Shown here in pieces: positions 40,974 through 52,287 of a stretch of DNA of 64,000 bases. Position 1 is the stretch's first letter. Each line of letters opens with the position of its first letter. The notes beneath the pieces were generated by a model, which saw only the letters and a program-made list of their open reading frames with translations, was not told where the DNA came from and did not search any database. Source of the DNA: Chrysophaeum taylorii (taxonomy: Eukaryota > Sar > Pelagophyceae > Pelagomonadales > Pelagomonadaceae); NCBI GenBank assembly GCA_029834535.1, contig JAQMWT010000148.1:1-64000 (forward strand), read 5' to 3'. The position numbers and the translations under genes are program-made.

Positions 40974-43900
40974 CTAGTGGTCGGTTTCGAGGGAGGAAAT
41001 GGCGGAAGCGAGAACGTCCTGGGTTGCCTGAAGATTCATCGACCGGATCTTGAGGGCCACCTTGCGGGCCTGGGGGACAAGCTTGGCGTGGGCGAGGCAC
41101 TGGGTGCCGGAGGCGAGATGCGTGGTGGCGAGGATGAGCTCGCTGCTGGCGGGTATGGCGTCGACGGGGTGCATCCCGAGGGCGGCCAGGCGGGTCGACA
41201 CAAAGTCGAGAGTCAGCTGGGGTACGTTGGGGACGACGTCGGCGGCGCGTTCCTGGCGGCACGAGCCCCAGCGCGCCCCAAAGTCCCGGGTCGAGAGGCG
41301 GGCCGGCGCGAAGGGCTCGGAGGGCGCCGGCGGGGCGGGAACGGCGGCGAACGGGTCGTCGAGGACGGCCGCGAGCGTCGAGGCCCCTCCCATCGACTGC
41401 GGCGGCGGCGCCTGGGGGGGCGCGTCGTCCACGAGATCGAGAAGCGAAATTTCCGGTCGCGGCGGCGGCGTCTTTTGTCGTTGCGATTCCACCGCCGGCG
41501 GCGGCGGCGGCGGCGTCGTCGTCTTGGGCTTGGGGGGTTGGCGCTGCGGGGTGCGCGAAGAACCCGGCGGCTTGGCGCTGCGAAGAGGCGGCTTGCTCTT
41601 CGGGGTGGGCGGCCGGGGCTCGTCGGAGAGGACGCCCCCGAAAAGGGCGGCGGCCATGCGCTGCTTCTCGGTAATTATCTCCTCAGAAACCCGCGCGGGG
41701 GGGGACAACGACAACTCCTGAGGCGGCGGCGGCGAAACAGACGCCGAAACAGCGGGCTCGACGTTGTTGTTCGCGGGGACGTCGGGCTGCTGCGGGGGCG
41801 GCGCGTTCGGGCGGCCCCAGGGGCCCGTCGTCGCGGCGAGACCTCGGCCGGCTCCGATCGCGTTGGCCGCCGCGCGCGAGGCCATCGGCGGGAGGTGCTG
41901 CGGGGCTTGCGGAGGGGGCGGCTCGACGCGTTGCGGCGCCGCCGGCCTCGTCGGCCGGTCGTAGGCCTCGTACTTCAACGAGACGCGAGCGTCGGAATTG
42001 CCGGCACCAAAACTACGGAGATTGTTGTTGTTGTTGTTGTCGTCGTCGTCGTCGTCGTCGTCGTCGTCCTCCGGGGGGGCGTAGGGCGCGGCCCCCGCGG
42101 TTAAAGCCGATGCCACAAACTTGTCGAGGAAGGCGAGCACGTCGTCGCCCTTGGCCGCGGCACCCTCGCCCTCGAAGGGATCTTCGAGGCTCGCGTCGTA
42201 GGGGACTACGTCGATCAAAAGGTCCAGGTCGGCGCGAAGGTCCATGAGACCCAAAAACTCGAGGGCACGCTGCTGGAGATCGAGGGTGGAGCTCGCGGTG
42301 TATTTAGTGGCGAGGGCGTTGATCGCCGCGAAGTCAGAGGTCGACGCGAAAGCGCCAGACGTGCGTTCGAGCGCGCGCGCGGTCGTCTTGCAGAGCGCCG
42401 CCATCAGAAGACTTCGGGTTTTCGTGGAGCCCCGGAGCCTCGCGTCGTCGGCGCAGAGCTCGCACAAGGCCCCGGGGAGATCGTCGGGCGAGACCGTCGT
42501 ACAGAGCGCACCGTACTCGCCGACGACCCACGCGAGGATGTGGAGCAACGACTCGGGCACCGACTCCCACGATAGCATCGAAGCGAACTCGTCGACCGCC
42601 GAGGCCCGGAGACCGTCGTCCTCGGTCTCGGCCAACAAGGCAACCAAATTCTGCGAGACGTCGGGCTGCACGAGGTCGCCGGCGAGTTCGAGGACTTTGA
42701 TGACCGTCGCGACGTACCATTCGGTCGACGGCGCGAACCGCTCGGCGGCGGTGCAGAGGCGACTCACGAGGGCCGACCTCAAAAATTCGTCGGTCGACGA
42801 TTCGAGACTCTGGATCAGCTTGGTCGCGATAAACTCGACGTTTACGGGGTTGATCATGCGGTACAGCAAATCGAGCGTCTTTCGCTTCAGCGTATCATCC
42901 ACGTCTTCGAGACATTCGATCACGGCGAGCTGGTGCTGCGCGGCGTATTTTGGGTGCTGCTCGACGATGTGCGTCAGTCCCGTAATCCCCAGGTACTTGA
43001 GGTTGTTGTTCTCCGACGCGAGGAACCTCGCAATCGATTTCGCCGCCTCGTCGAGCAGCGTCGTGTTCGGGTAGATCGTCGTGATCGTCCTCACGCATTC
43101 GTAAACTATCGCGTACCCCGCGTTGATCCCCGCGTCCGCGCGACGCATCGCGTCCGACAACACCTCGTACATGCCCTCGCTCGCGCGCTGGTCCGCCCGA
43201 CCCAAATGCGCGAGCACCCGCAACAGCCGGAGCTGCGCCCAGGGCGCGGGAATCCGATGGTAGTCGAAGTCGCGCGGCAGCCGGTGCTCGACCACCTGCT
43301 TGAGGATCGACACGAAGCTCGGAACCAGTTCCTTCAATTTCCCCGGCTCCTCGACGATCATGTCGTGCAGCAAGCACAACGCCGCGCACATCACCGACGG
43401 ATCCTTGTCGCACAAGGTCCGCCGCATCGCGTCGCCCACCACGTGCCCGACCGCCCCCTTATCTAGCTGGTGAAACCGGTGCAACACCATCGCCACCTTC
43501 TTGCGCACCAGCTCCTTTCCGTGCGACCCCAACTTTATCACGCGGTCCGCGAGCGCCGGGATCATGTCGGGCGTCGCGAGCCGCAGCATGGCGCTCAACG
43601 CGGCGGCCACCTCGAGGTAATTGGCCGACGCCATGTCCTGCTGCAGCTGGTTCACCAGCATGAACCGAAACTCGTGCGACGGCGACAGGCACAGCCCCGA
43701 GCACAAGTACCCGACGCGCTTCTGCACCAAGTTCTTCGACGCGGCCAGTTCGATCGCCTTTATGTACCCGAACGACGCGTCGTGACCAAGCATCTCAACG
43801 TACACCAGTCGAATCAAAAACTCCTTCATCTTCTTCTTCGACACGTTCGCCTCGACCATCCGACGCTTCAACGTCTGCACCTCCTCCACGATTATGCTGT

Positions 43901-43982
43901 CCTCCTGCTGCTTCGACTTGCTCTCGCCGATCGCCTTCACGAGGTCGAAAAAGTCCTTGCTGAGGTGCGACCCGCTCATCAT
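40974..43982 (-). CDS. AP4E1: AP-4 complex subunit epsilon
   Basis: A 1002-aa large adaptin. The N-terminal trunk (about 1-560) matches AP-4 epsilon rather than AP-1 gamma or AP-2 alpha: LSKDFFDLVKAIGESKSKQ, KKMKEFLIRLVYVEMLGHDA, SFVSILKQVVEHRLP, YDYHRIPAPWAQ-like FDYHRIPAPWAQLRLLRVL, and CLEDVDDTLKRKTLDLLYRM. A long hinge holds Asp and Asn runs, Pro-rich tracts and a clathrin-box-like SLLDLVDD. The C-terminal ~120 residues (RLSTRDFGARWGS onwards) fit the epsilon appendage. AP-4 sorts cargo at the trans-Golgi. The ATG at 43982 is one of two in tandem. Further upstream frame is antisense to VPS36. Confidence 0.95.
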   Translation of the reverse strand: MMSGSHLSKDFFDLVKAIGESKSKQQEDSIIVEEVQTLKRRMVEANVSKKKMKEFLIRLVYVEMLGHDASFGYIKAIELAASKNLVQKRVGYLCSGLCLSPSHEFRFMLVNQLQQDMASANYLEVAAALSAMLRLATPDMIPALADRVIKLGSHGKELVRKKVAMVLHRFHQLDKGAVGHVVGDAMRRTLCDKDPSVMCAALCLLHDMIVEEPGKLKELVPSFVSILKQVVEHRLPRDFDYHRIPAPWAQLRLLRVLAHLGRADQRASEGMYEVLSDAMRRADAGINAGYAIVYECVRTITTIYPNTTLLDEAAKSIARFLASENNNLKYLGITGLTHIVEQHPKYAAQHQLAVIECLEDVDDTLKRKTLDLLYRMINPVNVEFIATKLIQSLESSTDEFLRSALVSRLCTAAERFAPSTEWYVATVIKVLELAGDLVQPDVSQNLVALLAETEDDGLRASAVDEFASMLSWESVPESLLHILAWVVGEYGALCTTVSPDDLPGALCELCADDARLRGSTKTRSLLMAALCKTTARALERTSGAFASTSDFAAINALATKYTASSTLDLQQRALEFLGLMDLRADLDLLIDVVPYDASLEDPFEGEGAAAKGDDVLAFLDKFVASALTAGAAPYAPPEDDDDDDDDDDNNNNNNLRSFGAGNSDARVSLKYEAYDRPTRPAAPQRVEPPPPQAPQHLPPMASRAAANAIGAGRGLAATTGPWGRPNAPPPQQPDVPANNNVEPAVSASVSPPPPQELSLSPPARVSEEIITEKQRMAAALFGGVLSDEPRPPTPKSKPPLRSAKPPGSSRTPQRQPPKPKTTTPPPPPPAVESQRQKTPPPRPEISLLDLVDDAPPQAPPPQSMGGASTLAAVLDDPFAAVPAPPAPSEPFAPARLSTRDFGARWGSCRQERAADVVPNVPQLTLDFVSTRLAALGMHPVDAIPASSELILATTHLASGTQCLAHAKLVPQARKVALKIRSMNLQATQDVLASAISSLETDH

Positions 43983-44097
43983 GCTGCTGCTCCTTCCTTC
44001 TTTTCGCTCTCGAGCGACTTTTGTTGTAATAATACCTCTCCTCACACACTCTCGTCGACCGAGAGAGGGTTTTTTTTTAGGTCCAGTATATATAGGA
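43983..44097. promoter_or_regulatory. Divergent promoter, AP-4 epsilon / VPS36, with TATA-like box
   Basis: A 115-bp spacer. AGTATATATAGG lies at 44085-44096, immediately before the VPS36 ATG, and TTGTTGTAATAATACC lies nearer the AP-4 side. If the TATA-like box acted on VPS36, transcription would start inside the coding region, so it may instead serve the AP-4 direction or be unrelated. Confidence 0.45.
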
Positions 44098-45231
44098 ATG
44101 GAGTCTTTGGCTCTCAACGCGATGACCAAGCTGCCCGAGATGTCGGGGGGTGAGGTGGTGTTGCACACGGAGAAGGAGGCGTGGGTGCGGACGTTTGGGT
44201 CGGAGTGGCGGGGGACGGTGGTGATCACGACGCTCCGCGTGCTGTTCTGGACGAGCGACGGCCAGGTGGCGCGGCAGGCGTCGGTGGGGTCGGTGCGGAA
44301 GTGCGTCGTGAAAAAGGAGCGGTTCGCGCGCAAGGCGGTCGTCGAGGTGTGGGGAGAGCGGCTGCTGCTGGCGGTGCGGGGGGACGCGGTTTTGGCACGA
44401 CATTGCGAAGAAGCGACGCGCGAATTTTTATTTTCCGAGCGTCGGAGAAGAAAAAAGTCCGAGGAGGAAGGCTTCGAGGTGTCGGGCGCCGGGATCGGCG
44501 GGATCCTGCGGCGCGAGCGGCGCAAGCGCGACGCCGCGGGCCAACTCGCCGCGGAGGTCCAGAACGACCTGACAGCATTAATAAAACGCGCGGCGAGCGT
44601 CGTCGAACTCCTCGAGAGGTACGGTCGGGACCGCGACGCCGACGCGGGCCTGCGCGGGCTGGGGCTGATGGGGGGTCTCTGGGGACACGACGACGACGCC
44701 GAGGGCCTCGCGCGCCGCGTGGTCGCCTTTGCCGTCGAGGCGTATTTTCCGTGGCTTTCGGAGGACGACGCTCCGATAAGTCCCGAAAAAGCGGCCGCCG
44801 CGATGGTTTCGTTGCCCGACGTCTACTCCAAGTTCAACAGGGCCCGCGGCGCCGCCAAGCTCGTCAGCCCCGACGACTTGGTGACGGCCCTCGAGGTCTT
44901 TTGCGTCCGCGAATCCCCGCGCTGCCTTGCTGACCTTCCCCTCGAGCTTCGTACTTTTTCCTCGGGCGTTAAAGTGCTGAGGCCGAAGACCCGCGCCCAC
45001 GCCGCTCTGGTCGCCACGTTGCAGGCGCTCGCCGACACCCCCGGCGGTCTCTCGGACCTCGAGGCGGCGCGCCACCTCGACATCCCGGCGGCCCTCGCGC
45101 GCCAGCACCTCCTCGACGCCGAAGCCCAGGCCGCGCTCTGCCGCGACGACGCCCCCGCTGGCCTCCGCTTCTTCCCAAACCACTTCCACAGCTACAACAA
45201 CCCCGCCGCCGCCGACCTTGTTTCCTTCTAG
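44098..45231 (+). CDS. VPS36: ESCRT-II subunit VPS36
   Basis: A 377-aa protein with the VPS36 layout. An N-terminal GLUE/PH-like domain (about 1-115: GEVVLHTEKEAWVRTF, TLRVLFWTSDGQV) would bind phosphoinositide and ubiquitin. The linker motif GIGGILRRERRKRDAAG corresponds to GI.GIERK, and a winged-helix core follows with VYSKFNRARGAAKLVSPDDL, LELRTFSSGVKVLRP and CRDDAPAGLRFFPNHF, all diagnostic of VPS36. ESCRT-II sorts ubiquitylated cargo into multivesicular bodies. The ATG at 44098 starts at the family N terminus. The last 27 codons lie inside the 236-bp tandem duplication that follows. Confidence 0.95.
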   Translation: MESLALNAMTKLPEMSGGEVVLHTEKEAWVRTFGSEWRGTVVITTLRVLFWTSDGQVARQASVGSVRKCVVKKERFARKAVVEVWGERLLLAVRGDAVLARHCEEATREFLFSERRRRKKSEEEGFEVSGAGIGGILRRERRKRDAAGQLAAEVQNDLTALIKRAASVVELLERYGRDRDADAGLRGLGLMGGLWGHDDDAEGLARRVVAFAVEAYFPWLSEDDAPISPEKAAAAMVSLPDVYSKFNRARGAAKLVSPDDLVTALEVFCVRESPRCLADLPLELRTFSSGVKVLRPKTRAHAALVATLQALADTPGGLSDLEAARHLDIPAALARQHLLDAEAQAALCRDDAPAGLRFFPNHFHSYNNPAAADLVSF

Positions 45232-45622
45232 TTTCGAAGATCTAATTTTGTGGGGCGGTCAGGCGCGGTCCGACTTGATGTCGTCGCCGGCGGCGGCGGC
45301 AATGTAGATCATCTCGTCGCAGGAGTCGTCGGAATCCTCCTCGCCGTCGAAACCAGAGATTTTCGAGGTGGCCGTCGCCGAGCTCCGCCCCCGCTGGCCT
45401 CCGCTTCTTCCCAAACCACTTCCACAGCTACAACAACCCCGCCGCCGCCGACCTTGTTTCCTTCTAGTTTCGAAGATCTAATTTTGTGGGGCGGTCAGGC
45501 GCGGTCCGACTTGATGTCGTCGCCGGCGGCGGCGGCAATGTAGATCATCTCGTCGCAGGAGTCGTCGGAATCCTCCTCGCCGTCGAAACCAGAGATTTTC
45601 GAGGTGGCCGTCGCCGAGCTCC
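45151..45622. repeat. 236-bp perfect tandem duplication spanning two convergent 3' ends
   Basis: Copy 1 (45151-45386) and copy 2 (45387-45622) look identical by eye. Each unit contains the end of VPS36 with its stop codon and the end of the minus-strand receptor gene with its stop codon. VPS36 ends in copy 1 and the receptor in copy 2, so each gene keeps one working 3' end and leaves a dead duplicate of the other in between. The junctions share CGAGCTCC. It is very recent, or an assembly artefact. Confidence 0.9.
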
Positions 45623-48600
45623 CGCCGCCGCCGCTCAGCCCAAGACCGCCCTCGAGTGCGGCGTTTTCGAGCCGGAACAACGCGCCTTGGACGTGGCCGT
45701 CGCCGCTCGCGAGCGAATCGTGGAGCCTCCGATGCGCTTTGCGCGAATGGAGCGTCTCTCCGCGCATGATGAGCGCGGCAAGGTCGCGCCACCGCCAGTG
45801 ATCAGGGTTGTGGTGGTGGACGTCCCGCGTTCGCGCGATCTGCGTCATCAAGTCCACGAAGTTGGAGGTTTCTTCGGGGGGCGACGCGAGCATGAAGTAG
45901 AGGATGGTCGACCGGTGCTCCTCGACCTGTGGTGGTGGTGGTGGTGGTGGTGGTGGTGAAAGGATGGATGAAGACGCCAACTCCTACTACGACTACTACA
46001 ACTCTGGCGGCCGACGATGAGATCGGAGAGGAAGTACGGATGGTGTTTGGCCTCGATCTTGGCGTGGGCGTCTCGCGTAGATTTTTGCAGGCGCACGAGG
46101 ACGCTGTAGAAGAGGTTGCGCTCGTCGGCTGTTAACTCGTACGCGACGATGTTGAGAATACCCGGGTTTTGATCGACGACCTGGCGCCAGAACTCGGAGC
46201 GCCAGTCGACCGAAAGAGGACCGATCGGGGCGTCGTTACTGACGTAGAGCTGAACGCTCTGGGCGGTGGAAACGACCAGCTTAAAATCTTCGTCGGTGCG
46301 ATCCGGGTGGAACATCCAGTCGCGCGTCGGCGCCGCGTCGAGAGCACCCATCATGTCTCTCACGACGCGAGAGGCGCGATCGAGAATCGCAAACTCGGCG
46401 ACGTGCGACATCGATTGTTCGACGGGATCGAGCAGCGACGGTTGGATGCGCTGCATGTAGCTGGCGAGGTCGGTCGCGGACAGCCTGGAGACCTCGACGC
46501 CGGCGCGTTCGAGCAAGGTGAGATAGTAATCGGGAGCGAGCTCGGGGGGTCCCGGGGGTGGCACCTTGCGCTTGAGGGCGAGGAGCTGCGCGAAAAGCGA
46601 GTCGGCCGAATCGATAAATCGATGGCGAGCCAGTGCGAGCAAAAAATCCTCCAGCGTCTGGAGGGGCGTCTCCTCGGTCGCCCGGCGATAATGACTCGTC
46701 GAAGAAGACGCCAATTCCTCCTCCGCCTCGGCGGAGTTATTATTATTATTGGTGTTGTTGTCGTGCCACCGACGACGACGACGGGACTTCATCTCGACGA
46801 CGACGGCGGTCGGAAGCCGCGCTAACGCGATCTTCTTTCGCCGCGATCGGAAGTGTCGCTTGAACGTTTCGTAGACGTTGTCCTCGTCGAAGAGAACGCG
46901 AACGAGAGACTTGAAGCGCGCGTGGGCGATGCCGGCGTCGATGACGGCGTTATACAGGGTCGCCGCGGAGAAGACGCAAAGCCCGAGGACGCAGGCGACG
47001 GCCCAGGCCTCGCGATACGTCTCGTGCTCGAGGGCGTTGAGAGAAATCGCGTAGGCGAGACAAAGCGCGCAGCCGAGGCCCTCGAGGAGGTTGAGTCGAC
47101 TATTCTTGAACGGCAGGTACGTCCAGTGCAGCACGGTGACGAGGGCCATGACGAGGCTGATCCACGACAGCTGGATCGAACTGTGCTCGACGAGGGCGCT
47201 CGCGACGCATATCCCTACGAATCGATACGACAGGACGAGCTTCCACGTAAAGAACGGGCTCCGAAAGTCCCGCACGGCAAAACCAAAACGCTCCTGGAAG
47301 TTAGCTCGATGAACGCCAAAGTGCATTCGCAACTCGCGCCAGACGGCGACGAAAACGAAATGGGGGACGCCGAAGACCACGATCGCCGTGGCCAAAATCG
47401 CGAGCGCGCGGAGCGTCGCGTGGCGCCGGCTCCCGCACTTGATATTGATATCGTAAACCAGGTATCGATCGCCGTCGGCGAACGACTTGCATCGCATGGC
47501 CTCGAAACAGTTGATCGTGACCGTCGGATACGTAAGCTCGACCATCGAAAAAGCTCGCGCGACGGCTCTCGACACGGGCGGCGACGAGTACGCCCACCGA
47601 ATCCGTCGCGATGCGAGACGCACCAGAGATTCCGAAGGCCCAAGCCTGCGTTTGACGCGAGTCGCCGGTGCCGCGACGGCCGCCTGGTAGACCCAAACTA
47701 CCGCCAACACCAAGAAACAGACGAGCGCGAGCGCGAGCTGGAGCACGAAACCCTCGAAGGGTCGCCAGCGGTGCACGCAGTTTGGCGAGACCACGTCGAC
47801 GTCGAACAACAACAGTTGAAATATTGGATCGATGATGTCGACGACGGTCGGAAAGTGGACGCTGCCGACGCCGGCCGTGATAATGGCGACGACTTGGATG
47901 TTGTCGAGGAAAATCGTCATCGTCACCGACTGCTGAACGATGATCGCGTTGACGACAAACCAGAACACCAGGACGCAGGTCGCCGAAACCACGAGCACGG
48001 CGATGCGATTCCGCCGTTTGCGAGGACAGTCGATCGGCGTCGGGTAGCCCGAAATTTCAAAATAGTCCTTTTTCAGATAAGAGCACGCGTTTCTCTTGAG
48101 GCCTTTGTGACACGCGTATTTCTCTTTGCAGACATCTCCTCCGTCGCACTCGTAAAACTCGTCGGGCGAATCTGGGAATCCCCAATACCTGTCGTCGTCG
48201 TCGTCGTCGCATTTTTTCGAAGAATAAAAGAATAGAAGAGCACGCGCGTCGGTCGTACCCGGCTTTGTTGATTGGTGGATGCGTCGTGCCTTTGCACGTA
48301 GCCCCGGCGGGGCCTGCGCAGCACGGCTTTGGTTTTACCACGAAAAACAAACAACTCTACAAAAAAGCACTCTGCACCGAACAGGCTTTGCACGGCTTGC
48401 CGGTCTCGCCCCAGGTTGTGGGAAACTCGGTCGCGGCATCGACGGTGCCGTTCGTGACGCTCGAATAATAGTGGACCAGGCACTGGCACTCGCGGATCGA
48501 CGCCGCGGTGACCGCGACGTCGATCCCTTCGTTCGCCGGATCTTGGTGAAATTCGGACTCGGCTTGACTCCTGTCCGTGTTTTCGGGGCACGGCCTGCAA

Positions 48601-51600
48601 GCGGAGATGGTTGGTGCTTTGTCGACAAGAAAGAACACCGAGCAACTTGCTTGCACTGCGCCTGTCCCGTTTCGTCTTGGTACAGGTTGACGTCGCAATA
48701 CCCTGCACAGAACAAGGAGGAGGAGGATGATACGACGCGATGATGATGACTTTTTTTTAAGAAAAACGCTACTCACGGCACTCGGTGCCGTCGCTGTCTC
48801 GGAAGCGGCCCGCCGGGCAATCCTCCGCGCGCGAGTTTATTTATTTATTTATTTATTTATCGAGAAGAAAGAAAGAAAGAAAGAAAGAAGGAAGGGCCTT
48901 TTTTTTTTCCTTGAAATCATATTATCTCCGAGAAAAACGCACCTCGCAGGAAGTCTCGTCGGCGTTGACCCTCTGGCCGAGGTCGCAGGCCACGCACGTT
49001 GCGTCGTCCGGCCGATAGTAAAAGCCGGGGTCGCATTCGGTCGCCCCGCCAATTGGAGCGTCGGTGACGTTGCCGGGCCAGACGGTGACTTGGTCCGTGA
49101 AGAATTGGCCGTCGAGCAGCCACTCGCCGATAACAGCAATGGTGCCGGGCGAGGTCACCGACGACACGGCGAGCCTGGTTTGCCGTTGGCAGCACGACGA
49201 GCAGGTTCCCGACGTGATCATGTCGACGTTGCCCGACCGTCCGTCAAACTCTACGGACATCGCGTAGCGGCGCAGGAGCGTCGTCTTCTCGGGGAGCTCG
49301 TGGAACGACGCGACGGTATCGTCGCCTTCGTCGAACCGGCGGTAGGCGTCGACGAGGTCCGATATGGTCGCGGCGGCGTGCCAGGTCGCGTCGTGCAAGT
49401 AGGACGGATTGTCGCTTAGCTTTTGGATGACGAGGGCGCCGACGGTGTCGAGGGGAGCATCATCGCCCGGGCGAACGGTGTAGAGGTAGGCATAACCTTC
49501 GAGGGCGCCCGCGTCCGACGCGGCGGCGTACGCTTTAGCGACGTCGTAGATGGAGGCCATGATGATGATGATGCGCAAGCCGGGAAAGGCGGCGAGGGCG
49601 GCGGCCGTGTCCTCGGCGACGGTGTCTGCGTCGAGCAACGCCGACGAGACGAACAAGCCAGCCTTCGCCTTCTCCTTGAAGAGGTCGAGGTGATCGGAAT
49701 ATGCATCCGTGTAGAGAAAGAGGACTTGCGTCCAGGCGAAGTTATCGATGACGGCGTTGACGGCGTCAGCCATGTCTTGGGCGTCGGGGGCCAAGAAGCA
49801 GGTTTGGGAGGAATCGATGAGCGAGTCGACTTGCGACACGATGTCGACGAGCCCAAAGTCGGCGTCGAGCTCCTCGACTCCGGCGACTCGCGAGAGCGGT
49901 TCGGGCGGACCGAGGATGAATTGTACGTTGACGACCCACGCGAGCGGGACTGCTGTCGCGCTCCGTCCCGACGGGCACTCGGCGTCGACGTTAGCAACGG
50001 CATCTTCGAGCTGCGCGACGAGATAGGTCGACGATGCCGACTCGGCGTCCAACGTGATTCGCGTCGCGCAGACTTCCGCGTACGGAAAGAGCCGGGCCCG
50101 CGCGTCGGCGAGCGCGGCGTCGATAGCTGCGGTCTCGTTGTCGGTCTCGGGCCTGGCGTCCGAGGCGACGACGATCGTGACGTCGTGCGGTGGATCGCGG
50201 TACTCGGTCAAGTTCGAGGAGATCGAGGTGCAGAGACGGACGCGCGCGCGGGGAGAGCGACTCGCGCGTAGCCGTCGGTCGTCTCGAACGCCTCGCATTC
50301 CGCGAACTCGCCGACGCCCGCTTCGAAAATGGGCTGGCCGGTCTTCACCGCGTCGGTCTCGAGACCGTGGTATAGCGGCGAGTTGGCGCTGATGAAGTCG
50401 ATGATAGCTTGGACCTGGCCAACCGGGAGCGTCTCGAGGTTCTCGCCTCGTTCGAGGAAGACGTCGTACCTAGGATGATAATGATGATGATGATGATTTT
50501 TTTCGTCATACATCATCAATTGGAAAAACGAACAAACACGAACAGAAAGATTGATACACATATTGTTGTTGTTGTTGTTGTCTGGACTGAGAAGAAGAAT
50601 AGTCCTTACTCGTTGCCGCCGCTCATGATAAACGAGTTCGTGGCGACCTTGTAGGTCGCGGCGGGATCGATTGGATACCAAGAGTCGTCGTGCCGCGAAT
50701 AGACTTCGGCCGACAACACGAGGTCGTAGGGCGCGTTGAAGGCCCATCGCAACCCCGCGAACTGCGGCGGAATCCCACCATGGAGCTCGCACGCACCCTC
50801 GACGCACGCGAGTTGCCCGGGCCCCCCGCAGGTGCCGGGGACGAGCTGGTCGCACTGCTGGTAATCAAAGACCTGGGTAACGGCGTGGTCCAGGAGGTCG
50901 AGGACGGCAGCACCCGAAAGCTCGACCGACTGGATTGAGTTGTCAAAGATGAAACTCGTACGAACCTCAAAGGCCGTGATGTGTTTCCCGCGGGGATCGA
51001 GGCCCGGACGACGCCGCCGTTCTCGAGCGAAAAGTCGCAGTCGCCGCAGAGAGCGAGATCGGCCAGCGCGGCGACGCGTCCGAGGGAACAGTCGGGCCGA
51101 TAGCATCCAAGAGCCTGAGGTCCCGTTGCCGTCTCGTCGAGGCTTCGCTCGCCGTCGAGAAAGATGTGAGTGAACCCAACGTTCTCCTCGAGCGCCGCGT
51201 AAGTCTCGTCGAGCGACGCGACGACGACGTCCCACGCGTCTTTCTTTAGGGGCGTGCCTTCGCCGAGATGCAATTGGTCAACCGATGCGTTGACAATCAT
51301 CCCGCGGTCATCAAAGTCGAGGGACGCCACCGTCATGGCGCTCGAAGTGTCCGAACCCGTGACGGTCGCGGCGAGCGTCGCGCGTACGTAAGCTCGACTT
51401 AGGCCGCCGACGCGAAGCCGCGCGAGCTCCTCGACGCCAACCCATGGCTCGTAGGAGACGATGACGTCGAGCGACGGGTACGCGGCGTACATGTACTCGA
51501 AAAACGTGGGGCCATCGTCGGCGTTGAGCTCGCCAACCAGAAGTATGATGATTTTGCACGCCGGATGCGAAGCCTCGAGGTCGCGTATCGCCGTCGCGAC

Positions 51601-52287
51601 GTCGTCGCCATCATACGGCTCCCTGTTCGACCACGTTCTCGCCGATCGCGCCGACACGTCGGGCGCCAGAGCACCGCCGATCCGCTGGACCAAGTCGGTG
51701 TCCACGAGACCAATCACCCCAACCTGCAGTTGGTCGCTCGCGTTCAACACCGTCCACGGCGCGACGCGTCCGCGCAAATACTCGTTGTCCTCGGCGTCGA
51801 GGTTCGCGCCAACAACTGGCACGCTCAGGTTGCCGAGCTTGTCGACCCAATTCCCGAACGTCTCGCACGTCTGCTCGCACGAGTAAAAGTCCCAGTTGTC
51901 GCACGCGGCCACGTCCACGCCCATCTTCTCGTACACGCCGATCGCCGTCTCGAGCACGTCGTAACGGTACCAGAGATTCGTGTAGTAGAACCCACCCATG
52001 TCCACGAACAGGACGTTCTTCGAAGGATCCATGCGAAGTTCCTCGACCGCCCCCGCAATTCTCGCGGGACCCCCATACACAGCGCCATCGTCGAGAAGGG
52101 CGGAGCCGTCGGTCAAATTGACTTCGCCCGGTTCAGCGAGGCTCCCAAACGGATTGTTGGGGAGAAACCGACCCCTCAGCCGACCCATCACGGCCACCTC
52201 TAGCCTCCAAGTCGAGGTGTTCTTGGCGCTCAAGACCGGAATAACAACGACGACAAAGCCAAAGGCTGCTGCTGCTGCCCGCATCAT
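45495..52287 (-). CDS. Multi-domain receptor: pseudo-5'-nucleotidase, periplasmic-binding-like, Cys-rich, TRP-like
   Basis: A long minus-strand gene with signal peptide (RAAAAAFGFVVVVIPVLSA). I infer seven exons: 50610-52287, 48943-50469, 48777-48822, 48639-48702, 48361-48594, 46016-48187 and 45495-45926. Junctions are GT-AG and keep phase. Exon 1 encodes a 5'-nucleotidase fold (GGPARIAGAVEELR, VGVIGLVDTD, GGVVRASIPAGN, ending SGGNEYDVF), but every metal ligand position is changed. Exon 2 holds an ANF-receptor/PBP1-like domain (TIVVASDARPETDNE, WTQVLFLYTDAYSDH). Cys-rich GCC2/GCC3-type segments follow (CDPGFYYRPDDATCVAC, CPAGRFRDSDGTEC, FYECDGGDVCKEKYAC). Exon 6 encodes the membrane domain (ERFGFAVRDFRSPFF, WKLVLSYRFVGICVA) and the cytosolic tail. 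The frame slips near 50970 and 50250, so it is a pseudogene in part or there are sequence errors. Confidence 0.7.
50470..50609 (-). other. Predicted intron 1 of the receptor gene
   Basis: A GTAAGG donor and a CATCCTAG acceptor join SGGNE to YDVFLERG in frame, completing the 5'-nucleotidase C-terminal motif. The intron is 140 bp. Confidence 0.75.

Follow-up and report, generated by a model that had tools for sequence, protein, structure and literature searches.

What kind of protein is encoded by a long gene on the minus strand of a stretch of the Chrysophaeum taylorii genome, and whether that gene is still intact, are the questions raised by the locus described here. The stretch analyzed (the window; 64,000 nucleotides, C148:1-64000 of contig JAQMWT010000148.1) belongs to an assembly of 70.8 Mb in 697 contigs, and the gene occupies positions 45495..52287. 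The original prediction saw one gene for a receptor-like membrane protein in which a 5'-nucleotidase fold, a PBP1-like domain, cysteine repeats and a TRP-like membrane domain follow one another. This order is borne out by profile matches to 5_nucleotid_C, ANF_receptor (marginal) and Ephrin_rec_like and by homology of the membrane part; as read from the DNA, the gene specifies a pseudo-5'-nucleotidase, a PBP1/ANF domain, an Ephrin_rec_like stalk, a multi-helix TRP-like membrane part and a tail. Beyond that prediction, the gene has two breaks in its reading frame, its nucleotidase domain has lost its active site, and a related family with PARP domains (the PARP-type family) is present in the same genome.

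Three copies of the receptor family are seen in the genome by sequence comparison: one on contig C675 that is readable whole, the window copy with its two breaks, and one on contig C544. The C675 paralog is modeled as seven exons separated by six GT-AG introns; the exons join into one open frame of 2001 residues, of which the final ~40 may be read-through intron. Its nucleotidase and PBP1 parts lie together in a single 3237-nt exon (5_nucleotid_C, 66.8 bits; ANF_receptor, 38.1 bits), which supports a receptor-like membrane protein with the predicted order. The nucleotidase and the PBP1/TRP protein might instead be two side-by-side genes, given that the frame of the window copy breaks between those parts; this is already contradicted by C675, which carries both in one open exon, and a further 14 loci pair a nucleotidase with PBP1 (in one frame in the seven scanned), so that the two-gene alternative is scarcely credible.

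In the window, eight exons and seven introns (six GT-AG, one GC-AG) were placed between the ATG at 52287 and the stop at 45495-45497, all on the minus strand, in a gene model predicted from DNA alone whose splice sites were picked by eye with C675 as guide. Frame, alignment and hydropathy assign to exon 1 (50610..52287) a hydrophobic, signal-peptide-like N-terminus, a pseudo-metallophosphatase domain and the bulk of 5_nucleotid_C (PF02872; profile match at 50609..50995, 44.4 bits); it is followed by a GT-AG intron of 140 nt (50470..50609) that is absent in C675. Exon 2 (48943..50469) holds the end of the nucleotidase C domain, the PBP1/ANF domain, part of which is covered by the ANF_receptor profile (PF01094; 49480..49926), and the start of the cysteine region. 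Cysteine-rich sequence continues through exons 3 (46 nt; 48777..48822), 4 (52 nt; 48651..48702), 5 (212 nt; 48383..48594) and 6 (55 nt; 48259..48313), the first three of which have identical lengths in C675, and Ephrin_rec_like matches across this spliced region. The GC-AG intron lies 3' of exon 4 (48595..48650); the C675 paralog has GT-AG there. By homology, exon 7 (46016..48188) encodes the end of the cysteine region, the TRP-like membrane domain (hydrophobic segments at approximately 46940..47995, from hydropathy) and the start of the cytoplasmic tail, the remainder of which is assigned to exon 8 (45495..45926), where the donor of the preceding intron is uncertain and was guessed.

The window and C675 copies share ~74% nucleotide identity across the first 3300 coding bases and 66–83% amino-acid identity by stretch. 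Their alignment places two 2-bp insertions in the window coding sequence, an AC duplication at 50981..50984 and a TC duplication at 50233..50236 (both on the minus strand), because of which translation must switch from frame 0 to 2 and then to 1; the original claim of splice sites that keep phase therefore fails for this copy. The strict frame from the ATG ends at 50623-50625, after 554 codons. The frame-consistent stretches (434, 199, and 1419 codons; ~2050 in total) contain no internal stop, and the ratio of nonsynonymous to synonymous substitution (dN/dS) against C675 is 0.22, 0.12, and 0.30 for the three, at a dS of 0.9–1.0. Since the stretches are free of stops and dN/dS is low, both copies had a long history of selection on the protein, and the breaks are either recent or artefacts; recent damage or errors in the assembly probably account for the state of the window copy. 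Introns that would absorb the shifts were rejected: 210 and 171 candidates of 20–400 nt restore the frame on paper (shortest, 20 and 35 nt), but all of them would excise sequence that aligns with C675.

We give an even chance to the possibility that the window gene has recently become a pseudogene, encoding at most a truncated secreted protein, and that C675 is the sole functional copy. The two insertions and the early end of the strict frame point that way, as do the apparent decay of the third copy, whose matches on C544 fall in short, shifted frames, and a DNA search of the assembly with window positions 50100-51200, which matched, besides itself, C675 (76–80%) and C544 (67%) and found no second near-identical copy. 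The long stop-free stretches, each with dN/dS well below 1, speak against decay, and any loss must accordingly be recent. That the gene is instead intact, both shifts being assembly or sequencing errors, is a serious possibility at somewhat below even chances: each shift duplicates a dinucleotide in otherwise open sequence and the 3' end of the gene carries a 236-bp tandem repeat with 100% identity between its copies, whereas the frames of the adjoining Vps36 and AP-4 epsilon genes are open, as are those of several paralogs of 1500–2010 codons.

Whatever the state of the window copy, both it and C675 score above the 5_nucleotid_C cut-off (23.6 bits). The predicted 5'-nucleotidase fold thus stands as a sequence relationship, although its catalytic residues are mostly gone. 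The genome holds at least 18 places that match 5_nucleotid_C, 16 adjoining ANF_receptor and two adjoining Metallophos (PF00149), with no overlap between these groups; a genome scan found Metallophos at none of the 16 nucleotidase plus PBP1 loci, and Pfam scans found it neither in C675 nor in the window exon-1 frame nor in the seven PARP-type frames scanned, while the canonical nucleotidase genes on C366 and C457 do match it. The motifs were compared in an alignment that set the canonical C366 and C457 beside the two TRP-like copies (window and C675) and 11 PARP-type sequences, gapped rows being set aside column by column. All 12 family rows that are ungapped at the catalytic His of GNH have another residue in its place; replacement likewise affects the His of TH in 13 of 13, the first His of GGHDH in 13 of 13 and the second in 12 of 13, and the Asp of GD in 12 of 12 (a column in which canonical C457 is out of register). 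The Asp of the first motif is replaced in eight of ten rows (retained in C242 and C606) and the Asn of GNH in 10 of 12. In both the window and C675, Trp stands for the GNH His, Gly for the GD Asp, Val for the TH His and Arg for the first Asp; an alignment to 2z1a gives the same Trp and Gly. The nucleotidase of this family is, on these alignments, probably inactive, most of its dimetal site having been lost.

In C675, HMMER aligns two Phe and one Arg with Phe429, Phe498, and Arg410 of UshA (positions derived manually from the coordinates of the chain), the last of which we take to be a substrate-binding residue. In UshA, the purine is stacked by Phe429 and Phe498, and His117 serves in catalysis (PMC7922932). 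The pocket residues kept in C675 suggest suitability for a sensing role; the PARP-type rows, inspected by eye, lack both the Arg and the first of the two Phe. Sensing of a nucleotide or nucleoside, as first proposed, is plausible and gains some support from the lost catalytic His and the kept Phe pair and Arg, with the ligand itself a prediction. An active ecto-5'-nucleotidase tethered to the receptor and producing its own ligand, such as adenosine, could also account for the purine-clamp residues and the GNH Asn retained in C675, but it is very improbable with the catalytic His replaced in every family row that can be read and Metallophos found at two of 18 loci, both without PBP1. Elsewhere, weak nucleotidase matches occur in three phage records, and a single frame of a 5'-nucleotidase (L024:858-2573) combines Metallophos, 5_nucleotid_C, and an EF-hand that lies below cut-off.

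Downstream of the probably inactive nucleotidase, ANF_receptor in window exon 2 is marginal (25.8 bits; cut-off 25.4). Ephrin_rec_like, which we take to be the family formerly named GCC2_GCC3, matches the spliced cysteine region of the window at 42.4 and of C675 at 42.9 bits (cut-off 23.1), and the TNF-receptor-like ELAPOR1 family barely passes in the window (33.9 bits; cut-off 33.2). Of the profiles by which the original prediction could be checked, then, 5_nucleotid_C, ANF_receptor, and Ephrin_rec_like are found in the window, and Metallophos and PF06011 (TRP) are not. The TRP-like character of the membrane part is reached through relatives: it matches, at E 6e-27 to 6e-22, proteins encoded on C316 and in four tandem copies on C330, and one of these proteins passes PF06011 (32.5 bits; cut-off 28.5). 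Of the eight rows in the membrane alignment, six match PF06011 at E ≤10, one of them (L034) seen over cut-off. The C675 tail also matches the C330 and C316 proteins (E 9e-13 to 1e-8). A channel-like domain is consistent with this distant homology, which the window does not itself display to the PF06011 profile, and ion conduction would be a further step of prediction. A profile search of PDB with the membrane part returned two matches, neither better than expected by chance (E 0.66 and 4.9). The C675 tail additionally shows a weak PX domain match (L009:2405-3997; 16.5 bits against a cut-off of 21.6).

Genome-wide, PF06011 has ten matches, four of them over cut-off (two on C28, one each on C316 and C330), and each of these four has an ANF_receptor match within a few kb. 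The C28 protein carries ANF (50.6 bits), Ephrin_rec_like (32.6 bits), and TRP (37.0 bits) in one frame, all over cut-off. Proteins on C28, C316, C330, and C682 share with the window gene the layout from PBP1 to tail and a homologous membrane part; they differ from it in having no adjoining 5_nucleotid_C match in the genome scans. On C330, four genes of this PBP1 and TRP-like kind stand in tandem at ~97000-136500. The ANF_receptor proteins on C682 and C34 occupy frames of 1714 and 1397 codons, and that of C682 (L048) combines this domain with an Ephrin_rec_like stalk and several hydrophobic segments. Scanning of viral contigs confirmed no relatives.

The membrane part might alternatively be that of a family C G protein-coupled receptor (GPCR). 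Receptors of that family consist of PBP1, a cysteine-rich stalk and many helices, as does the predicted protein; a weak NCD3G match (16.6 bits; cut-off 38.9) and relatives with just six hydropathy peaks would fit as well. Yet 7tm_3 is absent among the 11 families matched by the eight membrane-alignment rows at E ≤10, while PF06011 matches six of those rows, and we regard a family C GPCR as unlikely.

Several known systems share parts of this architecture. UshA/CD73-type 5'-nucleotidases (PF00149 plus PF02872) have the same two-domain layout and residues aligning with those of C675, but the window family lacks the catalytic His, most metal ligands, and the PF00149 match, and is fused to receptor parts. 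PBP1/ANF receptors, which include receptor guanylyl cyclases and family C GPCRs, share the extracellular ANF_receptor domain and cysteine-rich stalk; the window gene differs in its pseudo-nucleotidase in front and its TRP-like membrane part. Fungal TRP-like/Flc/Pkd2 proteins (PF06011) have a membrane domain distantly homologous through the C330 and C28 proteins, the window itself giving no match, and their ectodomain is of another kind; TRP_N is present in most fungal TrpR homologs, according to the part of the source consulted (PMC8618638). Apicomplexan CRMPs, likened here by description only, have a cysteine-rich part followed by nine helices, and the excerpt consulted mentions neither PBP1 nor a nucleotidase (PMC9815656); the window has the cysteine-rich part and nine hydropathy peaks, but C675 has eight.

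The pairing of nucleotidase and PBP1 recurs at the 14 further loci in the same genome where 5_nucleotid_C adjoins ANF_receptor (L010-L023). At 12 of these a PARP match lies at the expected distance (C379, C125, C129, C388, C370, C242, three on C439 and three on C323) and at C149 and C606 it is not present; eight of the 12 are contained in single frames of 1646–2010 codons (C379, C125, C129, C370, C242, and three on C323). Seven PARP-type loci scanned with Pfam have 5_nucleotid_C and ANF_receptor inside one frame. WWE exceeds its cut-off in the proteins of C125, C370, C242, C323a, C606, and C149, while C379 falls short of it; in a genome-wide WWE scan, C606 and C149 alone of this family reach E 0.001. 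SH3_2 is below cut-off in every PARP-type protein where it matches. In the three proteins checked for hydropathy (C125, C242, and C323a), a single strong segment separates ANF from WWE, and two of the three also show weaker peaks in other places. Compared with PARP15 (match at 2e-29), the PARP part of C125 retains HGT and G-Y-F but has Ile in place of the PARP15 Leu, a residue pattern that is presumably that of mono-ADP-ribosyltransferases. In C606, the His appears to be lost. It is possible, and we propose it tentatively, that the inactive 5'-nucleotidase and PBP1 form a reusable module for sensing extracellular purines, to which this lineage joined two outputs: a TRP-like domain in one case and, in the other, a single membrane helix leading to a cytoplasmic WWE-SH3-PARP unit, which would amount to a receptor ADP-ribosyltransferase.

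The PARP-type family may be more novel than the window receptor. A survey of PARPs names, in the portion consulted, PARP16, one protein each from a sponge and from rice, and Rhizaria as cases with transmembrane regions, with no receptor ectodomain mentioned (PMC4245714). A search of the open-licence literature found no described membrane receptor with an intracellular ADP-ribosyltransferase effector, and no description of a nucleotidase plus PBP1 architecture of either the TRP-like or the PARP type; the earlier statement that no protein with this order is described holds within that literature, a scope that excludes eukaryotic protein databases. A hybrid origin by domain swap between the two types was considered and left undecided: the C675 nucleotidase (32.8 bits against the PARP-type family) is no closer to that family than canonical C366 is (35.0 bits).

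The neighbors at the 3' end of the gene are ordinary eukaryotic genes, an EAP30/Vps36 gene on the plus strand (43786-45231; 79.8 bits) and an AP-4 epsilon gene on the minus strand (40974-44822; Adaptin_N, 277.6 bits), each an open frame with a Pfam match; the two frames overlap on opposite strands. Window positions 45150-45621 consist of a tandem pair of 236-nt copies, 100% identical, that spans the region where the Vps36 and receptor genes converge at their 3' ends, so that the stop codon of each occurs twice. The copies are either a recent duplication or an assembly artefact.

Taken as a whole, the gene may encode a receptor that binds a small ligand, purine-like or other, and uses its TRP-like membrane part to signal, a reading we consider evenly poised and one in which ligand and channel activity are predicted; a purine as the ligand is held with less confidence than the whole. 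It builds on the module order, the loss of the catalytic His, the pocket-residue alignment in C675, the membrane and tail homology, and past selection. The hydrophobic start would direct secretion, leaving the nucleotidase and PBP1 ectodomain outside the cell, where the two domains could work as a pair to trap an extracellular ligand, either a purine or another small molecule; closure of the trap would be relayed through the cysteine-rich stalk to the membrane domain, which might conduct an ion such as calcium or hand the signal to the cytoplasmic tail.

A number of observations weigh against this reading. The window copy is frame-broken at two places, and ligand, current, and localisation are all predicted from sequence. 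The Asn of GNH is retained in the window and C675; UshA Asp504 is Asn in C675, and the UshA segment that contains Phe498 falls short of significance when taken by itself (i-Evalue 100), although 2z1a aligns the same Phe at 0.0036. PF06011 has no match in the window membrane exon in rows scanned to E 10 and reaches 12.0 bits in C675 (cut-off 28.5). Nine helices are not established, because at the same hydropathy setting the membrane parts have nine peaks in the window, eight in C675, and six each in C28 and C682. Structure prediction, proposed earlier as a check on the folds, gave nothing usable: two single-sequence AlphaFold models of window exons have a mean predicted local distance difference test (pLDDT) of 41.8 and 42.0. 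Finally, the nucleotidase and PBP1 parts of C675 are weakly related to their PARP-type counterparts (PBP1 of C675, 8.4e-6 with the TRP-type and 0.17 with the PARP-type profile; PBP1 of the window weak with both, 0.033 and 0.016, respectively), and for that reason it is not established that the paired ectodomains of the two families share an origin.

If the reading is correct, the family would be a purine receptor derived from an enzyme, in which catalysis was lost and the binding pocket kept. Animals sense purines through the P1, P2X, and P2Y receptor families, and such a receptor would lie outside all of them. The single-exon ectodomain of C675 provides a concrete target for the study of extracellular nucleotide sensing in protists, and the PARP-type family, if its reading also holds, would be membrane receptors with an ADP-ribosyltransferase as intracellular effector.

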